Of a stretch of DNA of 64,000 nucleotides, positions 25,336 through 31,601 are shown piece by piece (within the stretch, counting starts at the first letter, position 1; each line of letters opens with the position of its first letter). The stretch spans positions 24,552-88,551 of the forward strand of contig JAEEZX010000032.1 in the NCBI GenBank assembly GCA_016292045.1, in the 5' to 3' direction. The DNA comes from Bacteroidaceae bacterium (lineage in GTDB: Bacteria > Bacteroidota > Bacteroidia > Bacteroidales > Bacteroidaceae). Made by a program: the position numbers and the translations under genes. A model generated the notes under the pieces. The model did no database searches and was not told the origin of the DNA. It saw nothing but the letters and a program-made list of their open reading frames with translations.

Positions 25336-27273
25336 TTACTGCAAGAATTTCTGGAACGGGCTCATCGGCAGCCCGTTCTTGCTATATACGTTGGCCCGGA
25401 TAGGATTGTTCTTCCAGGCGTAGCGTATGGAAACAGGATTAGCGAGCGGTGAGGTAATTACGATACGGTTGCCACTGCCCTCTGCCTTGGCATTGACATA
25501 GCGGCCATCACTGCCTGCCACCTCAAACTCAAAGAATTCACCGTCGCGAAGCAGCGGCTGCGACAGCGTGCACACCACGGCACCGTTTTCAACCGAGGCC
25601 GACACCACTTCCGGCGACAACAGAGTGCGCGGATTCCACAACAGGCGCTCGAGAGCCAAAGCCACACGCGCTGCCACTTCCTTCTTGCGCAGAGGATGAA
25701 TATCAACGGTTTCACCGAGATCTATTGTCACAACCAGTTCTGCCCGGCCATCCCCGGCAGCCACCTCGCGCTGCGCTTCGCGCACCACGGACCAACCCGT
25801 GTGCTGCGGCTTGTCGGAGGGCTCCATATAGTTGGCAAGCTGGATGATGACAAAGGGCAGCTGCGGACGCCCGAAAGCCTGACGCCAGTTGGATATAAGC
25901 AGGCGCAACATAGCAGCATACTCACGGGCCTGCGCCATATCACCGGCATTGGATTCGCCTTGATACCACAAGACACCGGCCACCGCGTAGGGAGCCATCG
26001 GACTAATCATTCCGTTGAAGAGTACGGAAGGCAGATTCTGCAAACTGATGCCGCCACCCGGACAGCGCGGCATCTCCAATCCCGGGTACAGTTTCCAGCG
26101 CTGTCCCAAAAGTTGGACATCGTCCTTGCCGAATACCAGACGATAGGGCTTCTCCTTCACGAAATAAGGTATGCCGCTTTTATTCACAAAACGCACGGCG
26201 ATAACGTTGTCTCCCTCGCGCAGCACACCCTCCGGCACCTGATAGCGGCGCGGAGGATACTGATAACCGGTGGTGCCCACCTGCACCCCGTTGATATAAG
26301 TGATATCACTGTCGTAGAGCGTGCCGAGGAGTAGTTGAGCAGCTTTGCCGGCGTGCTCCTTACTGATATTAATGTGCTGACGCAGCCACAAACTGCCTAT
26401 CCACTCGCGGCGACCGGAGAGCGGCGACGGAGAGGCCGTAAGATTATACTGGTCGACATCCGTCCAGCGGGAATCGTCGAAATCCAGGCGGGTGTACTCC
26501 CCCATTCCCGGATCACCGGCATCGAGCATCCCGCGCCAGCTCTGCTCGGCAAGAGAGCCGGCACGTTGCTGGGCCTGCACCAGTCCGTCGTTCTGATAGA
26601 GCTGCGTCTGACGGCGGAGTACGGGATAGTACTTGGTTATGGAGTCGGAGGCTATCCACGCCTCGACGGGCGTACCTCCCCACGCACTCTCTATAATACC
26701 TTGGGCCACGCCCTTCTCCCGCTGCAACTGTTTGCCCAGGAAATAACCGATAGCAGAGAAACGCCAGGCATTCTCACGGTTGAGACGCTGCCACGATGTG
26801 GGACGAAGGTCGGCGGAAGGCCCGTTGGTATCCGTCTGATACTGCACATGAAAGAGACGCACCATGTCGTTGCTGTCATTGAGTTCGTCGGGATATTGTG
26901 GCGACACACGTTCGAGGGTGGTCTCCATGTTCGACTGACCGGAACAGAGCCATACGTCTCCCACCCAAACATCATCCATCCTACATCTTACATCTTCCCT
27001 CTTACCTCTTACCTCCAGAACATACGGTCCTCCGGCCTTCATAGCAGGAAGGTCCACACGCCAATACCCGTCAGCATCAGCTGTCGCTGTACACGTCTTC
27101 TTGTTCAGGCTCACTGTCACTATTTCCCCGGGGGCGGCCTGTCCCCAAACAGGAATATCGGTGCCTCTCTGGAGCACCATACCCGACTGGAATATCTGCG
27201 GCAGACGAATTTCGGCGCTACACAAGGCTACACCGAGCATCAACATCCACAGGATAGTAATCTTTTTTCTCAT
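25336..27273 (-). CDS. Sialate O-acetylesterase-like protein
   Basis: MRKKITILWMLMLGVALCSAEIRLPQIFQSGMVLQRGTDIPVWG, VWLCSGQSNMETT, GVLWYQGESNA. Confidence 0.9.
   Translation of the reverse strand: MRKKITILWMLMLGVALCSAEIRLPQIFQSGMVLQRGTDIPVWGQAAPGEIVTVSLNKKTCTATADADGYWRVDLPAMKAGGPYVLEVRGKREDVRCRMDDVWVGDVWLCSGQSNMETTLERVSPQYPDELNDSNDMVRLFHVQYQTDTNGPSADLRPTSWQRLNRENAWRFSAIGYFLGKQLQREKGVAQGIIESAWGGTPVEAWIASDSITKYYPVLRRQTQLYQNDGLVQAQQRAGSLAEQSWRGMLDAGDPGMGEYTRLDFDDSRWTDVDQYNLTASPSPLSGRREWIGSLWLRQHINISKEHAGKAAQLLLGTLYDSDITYINGVQVGTTGYQYPPRRYQVPEGVLREGDNVIAVRFVNKSGIPYFVKEKPYRLVFGKDDVQLLGQRWKLYPGLEMPRCPGGGISLQNLPSVLFNGMISPMAPYAVAGVLWYQGESNAGDMAQAREYAAMLRLLISNWRQAFGRPQLPFVIIQLANYMEPSDKPQHTGWSVVREAQREVAAGDGRAELVVTIDLGETVDIHPLRKKEVAARVALALERLLWNPRTLLSPEVVSASVENGAVVCTLSQPLLRDGEFFEFEVAGSDGRYVNAKAEGSGNRIVITSPLANPVSIRYAWKNNPIRANVYSKNGLPMSPFQKFLQ
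26970..27018. repeat. Heptamer tandem array inside sialate O-acetylesterase-like CDS
   Basis: Coding strand CTGGAGG TAAGAGG TAAGAGG GAAGATG TAAGATG TAGGATG GATGATG, encoding LEVRGKREDVRCRMDD. Confidence 0.9.
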
Positions 27274-27377: not shown

Positions 27378-28778
27378 ATGTCGACAGTTTCTACAGACCA
27401 AAACTCAAAAGGATTCTATAAACTATCGTGGCTTCAGCGTATCGGTTTCGGCTCGGGCGACCTTGCACAGAATCTTATCTTCCAGACAACATGTATGTAC
27501 CTGTTGTTTTTCTACACCGACATCTACGGTCTCAACGCAGTAGATGTATCGGTGATGTTTACAGTGGGCAATGTGGCCAATGTTATCTGGGACCCCATCG
27601 TGGGAGCGCTGATTGATAAGCACTCGCCGCGTCTGGGCAAGTATCGCAGCTATCTGGTGTTTGTAGGCATACCGCTGACGGGCTTTGCCATCCTCTGTTT
27701 CTGGAACGGATTTGCACCGTCGCTGCTCTACGCCTACGTCACCTATATTGCAATGACGCTGCTCTACACCTTCATCAATGTGCCGTACGGAGCGCTGAAC
27801 TCGTCGCTCACCCGTGACACCGATGAAATCACCATCCTCACCTCCGTGCGTATGTTCATGGCCAACTGCGGCGGTCTAGCTGTGGGTTCGGGACTGCCCC
27901 TGCTCATTGCCTATTTCACGAAAGAAGAGACCACAGGTCTGCCCAAAGACCCCGTAGCGTGGTTCACCACGATGACCATCTACGCCCTTGCGGGACTGGC
28001 TCTGCTCTTCTTCTGCTTCAGCCAGTGCCGGGAACGCGTGGTGATGGATGCCAGCGAGGCTGCCAACGTGAAGATAAGCGACCTGTGGATGGAGTTTTTC
28101 CACAACCGTCCCCTGCGTGTCATCGCATTCTTCTTCATCACAGCCTTTGCTATGATGTCTATCGGCAACGCAGCCGGTGCATATTTTATCAACAGTAATA
28201 TGCACGGTTCGCCCGACCAGCTCTCCATATTCATGGGATTGGGCTCGGCCCCCTCATTCATTTTCATGCCGCTGGTGCCCATGATTAAGAAGATGGTAGG
28301 CAAGAAGAATATGTTCTATCTCTTCCTCAGCATCGCCATCATCGGTATGGCATTCCTGTATGTCGTCGCCAAGATGGAGAATCCCAGCATGACTGTCGTC
28401 TATATCGCACAGTTCGTGAAATCCACCGGTGTCATCGTGGCCACGGGTTATATGTGGGCTCTCGTGCCGGAGGTTATCTCCTACGGTGAATATGTCAGCG
28501 GCAAGCGTATCGCCGGCATCGTGAACGCTCTCACCGGTATTTTCTTCAAGGCCGGTATGACACTGGGCAGTGTGGTAGCTCCCGCCGTTCTGGCATACGT
28601 GGCATATAATCCCGATGTCATTGAGCAGACACAAGAGGCTCAGGAGGGTATTCTGTGGCTCGTCTGCGTCATTCCCGCCGCTCTGCTGCTGCTGGCTATG
28701 TTTATCATTTCCAAATACGAACTCACCGATGAAAGAATCGATGAAATTAATAAAGAAATCGAATCCCGCAACTTATAA
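27378..28778 (+). CDS. GPH-family sugar:cation symporter (MFS)
   Basis: FGSGDLAQNLIFQTTCMYLLFFYTDIYGL; multi-TM. Track start 27351; MSTVSTDQ start preferred. Confidence 0.92.
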   Translation: MSTVSTDQNSKGFYKLSWLQRIGFGSGDLAQNLIFQTTCMYLLFFYTDIYGLNAVDVSVMFTVGNVANVIWDPIVGALIDKHSPRLGKYRSYLVFVGIPLTGFAILCFWNGFAPSLLYAYVTYIAMTLLYTFINVPYGALNSSLTRDTDEITILTSVRMFMANCGGLAVGSGLPLLIAYFTKEETTGLPKDPVAWFTTMTIYALAGLALLFFCFSQCRERVVMDASEAANVKISDLWMEFFHNRPLRVIAFFFITAFAMMSIGNAAGAYFINSNMHGSPDQLSIFMGLGSAPSFIFMPLVPMIKKMVGKKNMFYLFLSIAIIGMAFLYVVAKMENPSMTVVYIAQFVKSTGVIVATGYMWALVPEVISYGEYVSGKRIAGIVNALTGIFFKAGMTLGSVVAPAVLAYVAYNPDVIEQTQEAQEGILWLVCVIPAALLLLAMFIISKYELTDERIDEINKEIESRNL

Positions 28779-28796
28779 ACTTTAAACTTTAAACTA
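28776..28796. repeat. Heptamer array TAAACTT TAAACTT TAAACTA(TG)
   Basis: Runs from the TAA stop of the symporter to the ATG of GH43. Confidence 0.85.
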
Positions 28797-29827: not shown

Positions 29828-31601
29828 CCTTAAGAGCGCCGTCATACTGTTTCTCCTATGCCTGGCCACCGCGGCCCGGTCTGAGGACGGCAGTTGTCTG
29901 TGGCTGCGCGGCGAGATGCCCACGGACATCACTCTGCAGATAGACTCCACAATGCCCGATGACGACGGTTATCGTATCAACGGGCGCACTGTCACGGCCC
30001 GCACACAGATGGGGCTGCTCTACGGACGCTACGCTCTGCTACGCGGTGAACAAGGAGAGTCGCATCCCTTCTACCGACTGCGCATCCTGAACCACTGGGA
30101 CAATCTCGACGGCAGTATCGAACGCGGTTATGCAGGCGCCAGCATCTTCTGGGACAACTCCTCTCTCGATGCCCAACTCATTCAGCGTTACGCAGAAGCC
30201 TGCGCATCCATCGGCATCAACGGCACAGTGCTCAACAACGTGAACGCCTCGCCAAAGATGCTTACGCGCAAATACATCAAGAAGGTGAAGGAAATCGCAG
30301 ATATTCTGCGCCCCTGGGGTATCAAAGTATACCTCTCCGTAAATTTCGGTTCGCCGAAAGCTTTGGGAGAACTGAAAACTGCCGACCCGCTCGACCCACA
30401 AGTGCGTCAATGGTGGCAAAAGAAGGCAGAAGAGATATATGCAGTCATTCCCGACTTCGGCGGTTTTCTCGTAAAAGCCAACAGCGAAGGACAACCCGGT
30501 CCGTTCGACTACGGACGCACGCATGCCGACGGTGCCAACATGCTGGCAGATGCACTGAAACCCCATGGAGGTATTGTAATGTGGCGTTCGTTTGTCTATG
30601 GTGCCAAGCACCAAGGAGAGGACCGAGTGAAGCAGGCCGTGTCGGAATTTGCTGAACTTGACGGGCAATTCCGCGACAACGTAATACTGCAATCCAAAAA
30701 CGGACCGCTGGACTTCCAGCCGCGTGAGCCCTACGCACCAATCTTCGATCACATGACGAAGACTGCACAGATGGCCGAGCTGCAAATCACGCAGGAATAT
30801 CTGGGACAGAGCAAACATCTTGTCTATCTGGCTCCCATGTGGAAGGAGTTCTTCTCTTTCGTCAGTCCTGAGCGTCTGGTGGGTATTGCCGGTGTGGCGA
30901 ATATCGGCCTTGACACCAACTGGTGCGGTCATCATTTCTCACAGGCCAACTGGTATGCTTTCGGTCGCCTGGCATGGAATCCAATGCTCTCCTCAGAGCA
31001 GATAGCAGAAGAATGGCTCACGCAGACCTTCGGGAACGACAGTAATTCTCAACTGTCAATTATCAATTCTCAATTATTGGACGTGATGCTCCGCAGCCGC
31101 GAAGCCTGCGTGGATTACATGATGCCTCTCGGACTGCACCATATCTTCAAGTTCGACCATCACATGGGTCCCGATCCCGGCGGTTTTAAAGCCAACTATC
31201 CTATTGAATGGTGCCCGGTGTACTATCATCGTGCCAACAAAGACAGTATCGGCGTGGACCGCAGCAGCACAGGTACCGGTGCCACAACTCAGTATCGCGA
31301 ACCATACCGCTCACAGTACGACAATATTGACACTTGTCCCGAGCAATATCTTCTATGGTTCCATCGCGTGCCCTGGACCCGCCGTCTCAGCAGCGGTCGC
31401 ACTGTATGGGAAGAACTGCAATATCATTACAACCGCGGTGTCGAAGAGGTGGACTCCTTTGCCGTAATCTGGCAAGAAGCAAAGCCTTTCATCGACAAGC
31501 AACGCTGGCAGGAAGTGGAGGAACGTATGGAATTCCAGCAAAAAGACGCCCGTCTGTGGCGCGATGTCTGTCTGGATTATTTCGGCTCCTTCCTGAAATG
31601 A
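29820..31601 (+). CDS. GH67 alpha-glucuronidase
   Basis: GYAGASIFW, KVYLSVNFGSPKALGELKTADPLDP, GGFLVKANSEGQPGP. Starts overlapping GH43 stop (ATG 29820; track gives TTG 29814). Confidence 0.93.
   Translation: MNSLKSAVILFLLCLATAARSEDGSCLWLRGEMPTDITLQIDSTMPDDDGYRINGRTVTARTQMGLLYGRYALLRGEQGESHPFYRLRILNHWDNLDGSIERGYAGASIFWDNSSLDAQLIQRYAEACASIGINGTVLNNVNASPKMLTRKYIKKVKEIADILRPWGIKVYLSVNFGSPKALGELKTADPLDPQVRQWWQKKAEEIYAVIPDFGGFLVKANSEGQPGPFDYGRTHADGANMLADALKPHGGIVMWRSFVYGAKHQGEDRVKQAVSEFAELDGQFRDNVILQSKNGPLDFQPREPYAPIFDHMTKTAQMAELQITQEYLGQSKHLVYLAPMWKEFFSFVSPERLVGIAGVANIGLDTNWCGHHFSQANWYAFGRLAWNPMLSSEQIAEEWLTQTFGNDSNSQLSIINSQLLDVMLRSREACVDYMMPLGLHHIFKFDHHMGPDPGGFKANYPIEWCPVYYHRANKDSIGVDRSSTGTGATTQYREPYRSQYDNIDTCPEQYLLWFHRVPWTRRLSSGRTVWEELQYHYNRGVEEVDSFAVIWQEAKPFIDKQRWQEVEERMEFQQKDARLWRDVCLDYFGSFLK
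31047..31077. repeat. Heptamer tandem array inside GH67 CDS (TCTCAAC TGTCAAT TATCAAT TCTCAAT TAT)
   Basis: Encodes NSQLSIINSQLL in frame. Confidence 0.95.

Follow-up and report, generated by a model that had tools for sequence, protein, structure and literature searches.

A heptamer array within a carbohydrate esterase gene is a probable member of a dispersed repeat family in the rumen Prevotella group

The heptamer array located inside the esterase gene analyzed here is probably an in-frame member, tolerated at a surface hairpin of the enzyme, of a genome-wide family of dispersed, degenerate 7-base repeats with fast turnover. Period-7 arrays are a genus-wide feature of the rumen Prevotella group; most of them are intergenic, and some are located in open reading frames. 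The array, its host gene, and the adjacent conserved block occupy the following positions of the window, that is, of the whole 64,000-nucleotide stretch of DNA that was analyzed.

26970..27018, minus strand: heptamer array of seven degenerate units (TAAGAGG/TAAGATG family), in frame, coding for residues 86-101 (LEVRGKREDVRCRMDD)
25336..27273, minus strand: host gene, sialate O-acetylesterase-like (SASA) carbohydrate esterase, 645 aa (PF03629, E=1.8e-23)
26927..26961, approximate place, minus strand: conserved GDVWLCSGQSN block with the presumed catalytic serine, directly downstream of the array

The esterase array and its reading frame

On the coding strand (the reverse complement), positions 26970-27018 read CTGGAGG TAAGAGG TAAGAGG GAAGATG TAAGATG TAGGATG GATGATG, which is translated from the codons CTG GAG GTA AGA GGT AAG AGG GAA GAT GTA AGA TGT AGG ATG GAT GAT. 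Three units, those at offsets 0, 21, and 42, lie in frame, with CTG, GAA, and GAT as their respective first triplets; the units at offsets 7, 14, 28, and 35 are out of frame and start with TAA, TAA, TAA, and TAG. Periods of 7 and 21 were detected by TRF. At lag 7 the segment matches itself with a score of 21, compared with at most 5 at other lags tested, and none of 2000 codon shuffles reached this score (p=0.0005, the floor of the test). The preliminary description of an array with stop triplets only out of frame agrees with the sequence, the ORF, TRF, and codon shuffling.

The host protein has an N-terminal hydrophobic leader (MRKKITILWMLMLGVALCSA) and belongs to the SASA family: GQSN and DIHP (525-528) are invariant in the esterase alignment. 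Its solved relatives in PDB are 9h4u, 9ega, and 7kmm. The catalytic serine is presumably the one in the GDVWLCSGQSN block, an assignment that we take from general knowledge of the SGNH/SASA families. Overall pLDDT is poor in the AF2 models (56-58). In that of the esterase (numbering one above that of the 645-aa protein), the array is placed at the turn between strands 82-90 and 96-106, with a local pLDDT of about 62-69. The AF2 model of the orthologue L051 has the insertion as a low-confidence loop between the same two strands, and in the comparison of L054 with L053 the extra block takes the place of a two-residue turn there. The array is therefore predicted to lie in the turn that joins the final strand of the N-terminal beta domain to the one running into GDVWLCSGQSN, and the insertion is most likely an exposed hairpin extension, presumed neutral for the enzyme.

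The absence of stops from the in-frame units had been ascribed to selection or filtering. In non-coding arrays of the TAAGANG family, 48 units start with TAA (35), GAA (8), GAT (2), TAT (2), or AAA (1), so that about 27% of units outside genes are stop-less, and about 7% of arrays would have two stop-less in-frame units by chance. Zero in-frame stops in the gene are forced by the open frame itself. Since stop-less units are common outside genes, filtering of those arrays that fit is enough, and it is a simpler account than selection on single units. Thus, the filtering part of the proposal stands, with the same signature recurring in GltD and in one GalE, and selection is borne out only partly. 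Mutational loss of stops in place, considered separately, is not needed, as stop-less units already occur in non-coding arrays.

The insertion site in orthologous esterases

A search of the genus and of named genomes yielded 18 close orthologues, this gene included, with 64-89% identity to this protein; more distant ones were also retrieved. Ten of the 18 contain a period-7 array at the esterase turn that is significant by codon shuffling, with differing unit sequences and lengths. Three are empty (L048, L050, and L053), and in L032, L035, and L049 the heptamer pattern of the segment has been lost or is unclear. The p value of 0.0045 for the array-free homologue L005, which has a score of only 6, is best read as chance among the 22 tests run. 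The insertion site is common to close species, with presence, unit sequence, length, and number of arms varying.

The spacing between GGPY and GDVW is 17 aa in the array-free L004, L005, L048, L050, and L053, 23 aa in this gene, and 22 to 46 aa in the filled or non-empty close orthologues. The extra length relative to array-free orthologues is +15, +18, +24, +36, +42, +54, +66, +72, or +87 nt. These data uphold the earlier view that an array was captured into the ORF before GDVWLCSGQSN, as the extra segment is non-conserved; conservation of LEVRGKREDVRCRMDD in distant homologues was looked for and not found. Three expectations of the same description have to be revised. The net gain in this gene is about 6 aa rather than 10-16 aa; the insertion is not lineage-specific, since most close species hold arrays with other units at the site; and heptads do not come in threes, as the lengths are divisible by 3 nt, which the frame forces, but mostly not by 21 nt.

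The site is occupied by TAAGAGG units in this gene, AACTCTC in the sister species (L031) and in L051, GACTCTC in L002, GTTAGAG in L033, AATTCAA followed by CAATTCT in L036, CAACTTT in L037, and ACCTCTC in L054; mixed arms are observed in L034 and L003. Filled and empty esterases interleave on the phylogenetic tree, from which the variable segment was left out. The proteins of the filled L051 (35 aa) and the empty L053 (17 aa) are 88% identical. Most of the genomes compared are metagenome assemblies, the exception being that of the cultured Prevotella communis E15-14 (L054), whose record is titled complete genome. It has an array at the esterase site, so the feature is not a metagenome artefact. 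Elsewhere in the esterase of another species, a GC-rich 7/21-bp array is located in the C-terminal part (L049 2831-2895).

Heptamer arrays across the genome

A stretch of 354 kb from this genome contains 27 arrays with a score of at least 16 at lag 7, and its shuffled copy contains none; other lags yield 0-5 arrays, except for the harmonics 14 (16 arrays) and 21 (8 arrays). Unit families AATTGAN, AACTCTN, TAAGANG, and AAGAGTG recur at many loci of one genome and across species. Triplets of AATTGAN, the commonest unit of this genome, have 115 matches here and 13-115 per genome in the nine genus genomes searched; in 296 other genomes sampled from the phylum they are scarce or missing, with no more than 24 matches. 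For TAAGANG triplets like those of the esterase, 37 pattern matches were found in this genome, in both intergenic and coding places, versus 0 for the reversed control. Arrays between tandem genes are sense in 37 cases versus 13, lie at most 13 nt from the upstream stop in 36 of 50 cases, and have a median distance of 23 nt to the next start, counts that depend on crude ORF calls and on the fact that a stop-rich array ends any frame entering it.

Two further arrays of the window can be compared with the sister species G122. One intergenic gap contains TAAACTT units here (window 28776-28795) versus AACCATT there (G122 C1 13675-13720), and the array at window 31049-31075 does not differ between the two genomes.

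The recurrence of the same families makes it unlikely that the esterase array arose independently of other arrays of the genome, by ordinary slippage of replication that began at random seeds in a tolerant loop. Slippage combined with mutation does fit the replacement of units within a fixed 7-base register, and heptanucleotides are the most abundant class of long simple repeats in most prokaryotic genomes, according to Mrazek (2007) as cited in PMC4679880. However, a few unit families shared across loci and species would not be expected from independent random seeds, and only period 7 stands out.

Two-armed arrays

In the esterases L034, L003, L037, and L051, the segment comprises a purine-rich arm of heptamers and, after it, a pyrimidine-rich arm. 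Between this gene (L001) and the left arm of L034, the array is identical at 25 of 28 positions, and the array of the sister species (L031) resembles the right arm. By appearance, only the left (purine) arm is present in this gene and only the right one in the sister species. The left parts of L003 and L037, about 80 bp, are 100% identical, and their right-arm units differ. Hairpin folding of the two arms is significant only in some orthologues (L037, z -4.5; L034, z -2.9); it is not significant in L003, L051, and L001, and z-scores are mostly near 0. Hairpin folding was accordingly rejected as a general feature of the esterase segment.

Such an architecture could be produced by a mobile palindromic element, similar to those of Rickettsia or to a MITE: a discrete inverted-repeat element with heptamer arms, carried by a transposase and inserted in frame. 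The same two-arm layout is present in GltD, whose site is also taken by unrelated palindromes in L106 and L109, and among inverted neighbour arrays the purine-then-pyrimidine order occurs 8 times and the other order twice. Still, this origin is unlikely: units differ by locus and species, with neither a shared element sequence nor a fixed length, many arrays are single-armed, and no target-site duplication is recognizable in L051/L053 or L054/L053, pairs whose flanks are too diverged. Neither a target-site duplication nor an enzyme for array spread was identified for the arrays in general. As a separate observation, inverted TAATAGA-type heptamer arrays are located on both sides of a 370-bp stretch (L057 3189-3238 and 3607-3664).

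Arrays inside other genes

Coding ORFs contain 12, 6, and 8 lag-7 arrays in genome samples of G000, G122, and P. communis, respectively, and 0.0 after codon shuffling. Such arrays were found, among others, in GltD, in a GH2 enzyme that has two of them, and in a GLUG-motif protein; in P. communis their hosts, as named from Pfam matches, include GalK, GalE, QueA, and a glycosyltransferase-like protein. In GltD, the array AATTGAT AATGGAA AATTGAC AATTGAC AATTGCC has two in-frame units without TGA; similarly, the in-frame AATTGA unit of one GalE is AATGGA. The GalE and QueA arrays occur at recurrent positions across the genus, and the GltD site is occupied by heptamer arms, GC-rich palindromes, or 9-nt repeats, depending on the species.

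The 12 stop-bearing in-ORF arrays contain 45 stop triplets, all of them out of frame. A natural question is whether the esterase array acts as a phase-variation switch, in which the gain or loss of one unit shifts the frame and the out-of-frame TAA/TAG stop translation, turning the esterase on or off. The unit length is not a multiple of 3, there are stops in every shifted frame (frame counts 0, 2, 3), and the near-perfect units of the orthologues L002 and L051 could slip. Nevertheless, a switch is improbable, as the degenerate units of this gene lower slippage, every array-bearing esterase orthologue is in the open state, and arrays are also found in the housekeeping GltD, GalE, and QueA, unlike typical contingency genes. 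It is very improbable that the segment has been selected for a function in the enzyme, for instance as a hairpin that binds a substrate or surface and undergoes diversifying selection: it adjoins the GQSN block and varies strongly among close species, but it is absent from the three close orthologues with 17-aa spacing (L048, L050, and L053), and its peptides, dictated by the DNA unit (AACTCTC gives NSQLSTL), also turn up in unrelated proteins.

Several individual loci are of interest in their own right. GltD (glutamate synthase small subunit; L068 2059-3459 and L087-L116) has a hypervariable site, whose variants include the palindromes SPLPTSPKGEG...LPLGGGWEG and the 9-nt repeats NSEYSEYSEY. 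At query position about 140, where L148, L152, and L160 have heptamer arrays, GalE of G059 (L151) contains an unrelated repeat, TGTCATTCTGAGCAAAGCGAAGAATC, that includes a TAG in frame. An unrelated protein of this genome (L066 4690-4715) has an in-frame array (EVRGKREE) that is almost the same as that of the esterase, its stop-less GAA unit being in the corresponding place. In another reading frame of this genome (L208 around 1501-1521), TAAGAGG TAAGATG GATGATG precedes a pyrimidine arm. Arrays also lie in frame some 43 aa upstream of the C-terminus in L058 2208-3722, L065 369-2795, L066 1191-4820, L084 94-2514 and 8139-10568, and L126 1928-6598, in the linker before a tail like YDLxGR..GFY..GK. 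Perhaps these hosts are secretion-tail proteins; a scan of five proteins gave no supporting NCBIfam family match.

Comparison with known repeats

TAACTGA heptamer repeats have been described in marine Beggiatoaceae, Cyanobacteria, and some Bacteroidetes (MacGregor 2015, PMC4679880). Like them, the Prevotella repeats are 7-base tandem arrays, mainly intergenic near gene boundaries and with a minority in ORFs, whose forward sense has stops in all three frames. This placement, intergenic and in forward sense, is characteristic of the arrays of this genome as a class; the esterase array itself is inside a gene. The units are different, TAAGAGG/TAAGATG in the esterase and most commonly AATTGAN in the genome. 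In the TAACTGA system one unit dominates and related heptamers are rarely repeated, whereas the Prevotella group has several coexisting degenerate families (AATTGAN, AACTCTN, and TAAGANG). Repeats in BOGUAY ORFs are mostly in the reverse sense, which is free of stops, or at protein ends (PMC4679880); in Prevotella, stop-bearing forward arms are also found inside core genes, where they turn over at particular sites from species to species.

Rickettsia palindromic elements form families of recognizable sequence, 105-146 bp long, with terminal inverted repeats (Ogata 2000; reviewed in PMC2229807 and PMC2996958). The likeness lies in in-frame repeats at tolerant places of conserved genes, here the esterase, GltD, GalE, QueA, and GH2, and in inverted arms at some loci. 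Unlike these elements, Prevotella arrays keep the 7-base register alone: there is no common element sequence with terminal inverted repeats, units differ by species, unit sequence and length vary, and two arms are present only in some arrays. The arrays also share period 7 and likely slippage with the heptanucleotide long simple sequence repeats of prokaryotes, as those are presented in the citation of Mrazek (2007) in PMC4679880, but their units are degenerate and belong to dispersed families common to several loci. The esterase array is closest to TAACTGA repeats in its register and gene-boundary habit, and to coding palindromes such as the Rickettsia elements in being a tolerated in-frame repeat. 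We found no earlier account of Prevotella heptamer arrays of this kind in the open-access literature, which was the scope of the search.

Discussion

For a dispersed heptamer family tolerated at the esterase hairpin, we infer the following scenario of spread and turnover. An ancestral two-armed array would have entered the esterase turn, and lineages would then have lost one or both arms. Slippage, or exchange with arrays elsewhere in the genome, may have replaced the units. The persisting versions would be only those that preserve the reading frame and whose in-frame units contain no stop.

A further-reaching proposal, possible but doubtful, is that a process in rumen Prevotella actively seeds 7-base arrays, copies them between loci, and rewrites them, continually adding in-frame hairpin peptides to core enzymes. 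If true, such a process would be a source of protein-loop diversity without a conventional transposon.

The finding connects heptamer arrays between genes with the in-frame insertion of repeats into core genes, both of which are poorly explained. Many natural filled/empty pairs are available within one genus, a cultured species with a complete genome among them, which makes origin, mobility, and protein tolerance testable. Peptides such as NSQLSTLNSQL or RVKSEELRVKSEE in Prevotella proteins should be regarded as repeat DNA and not as conserved motifs.
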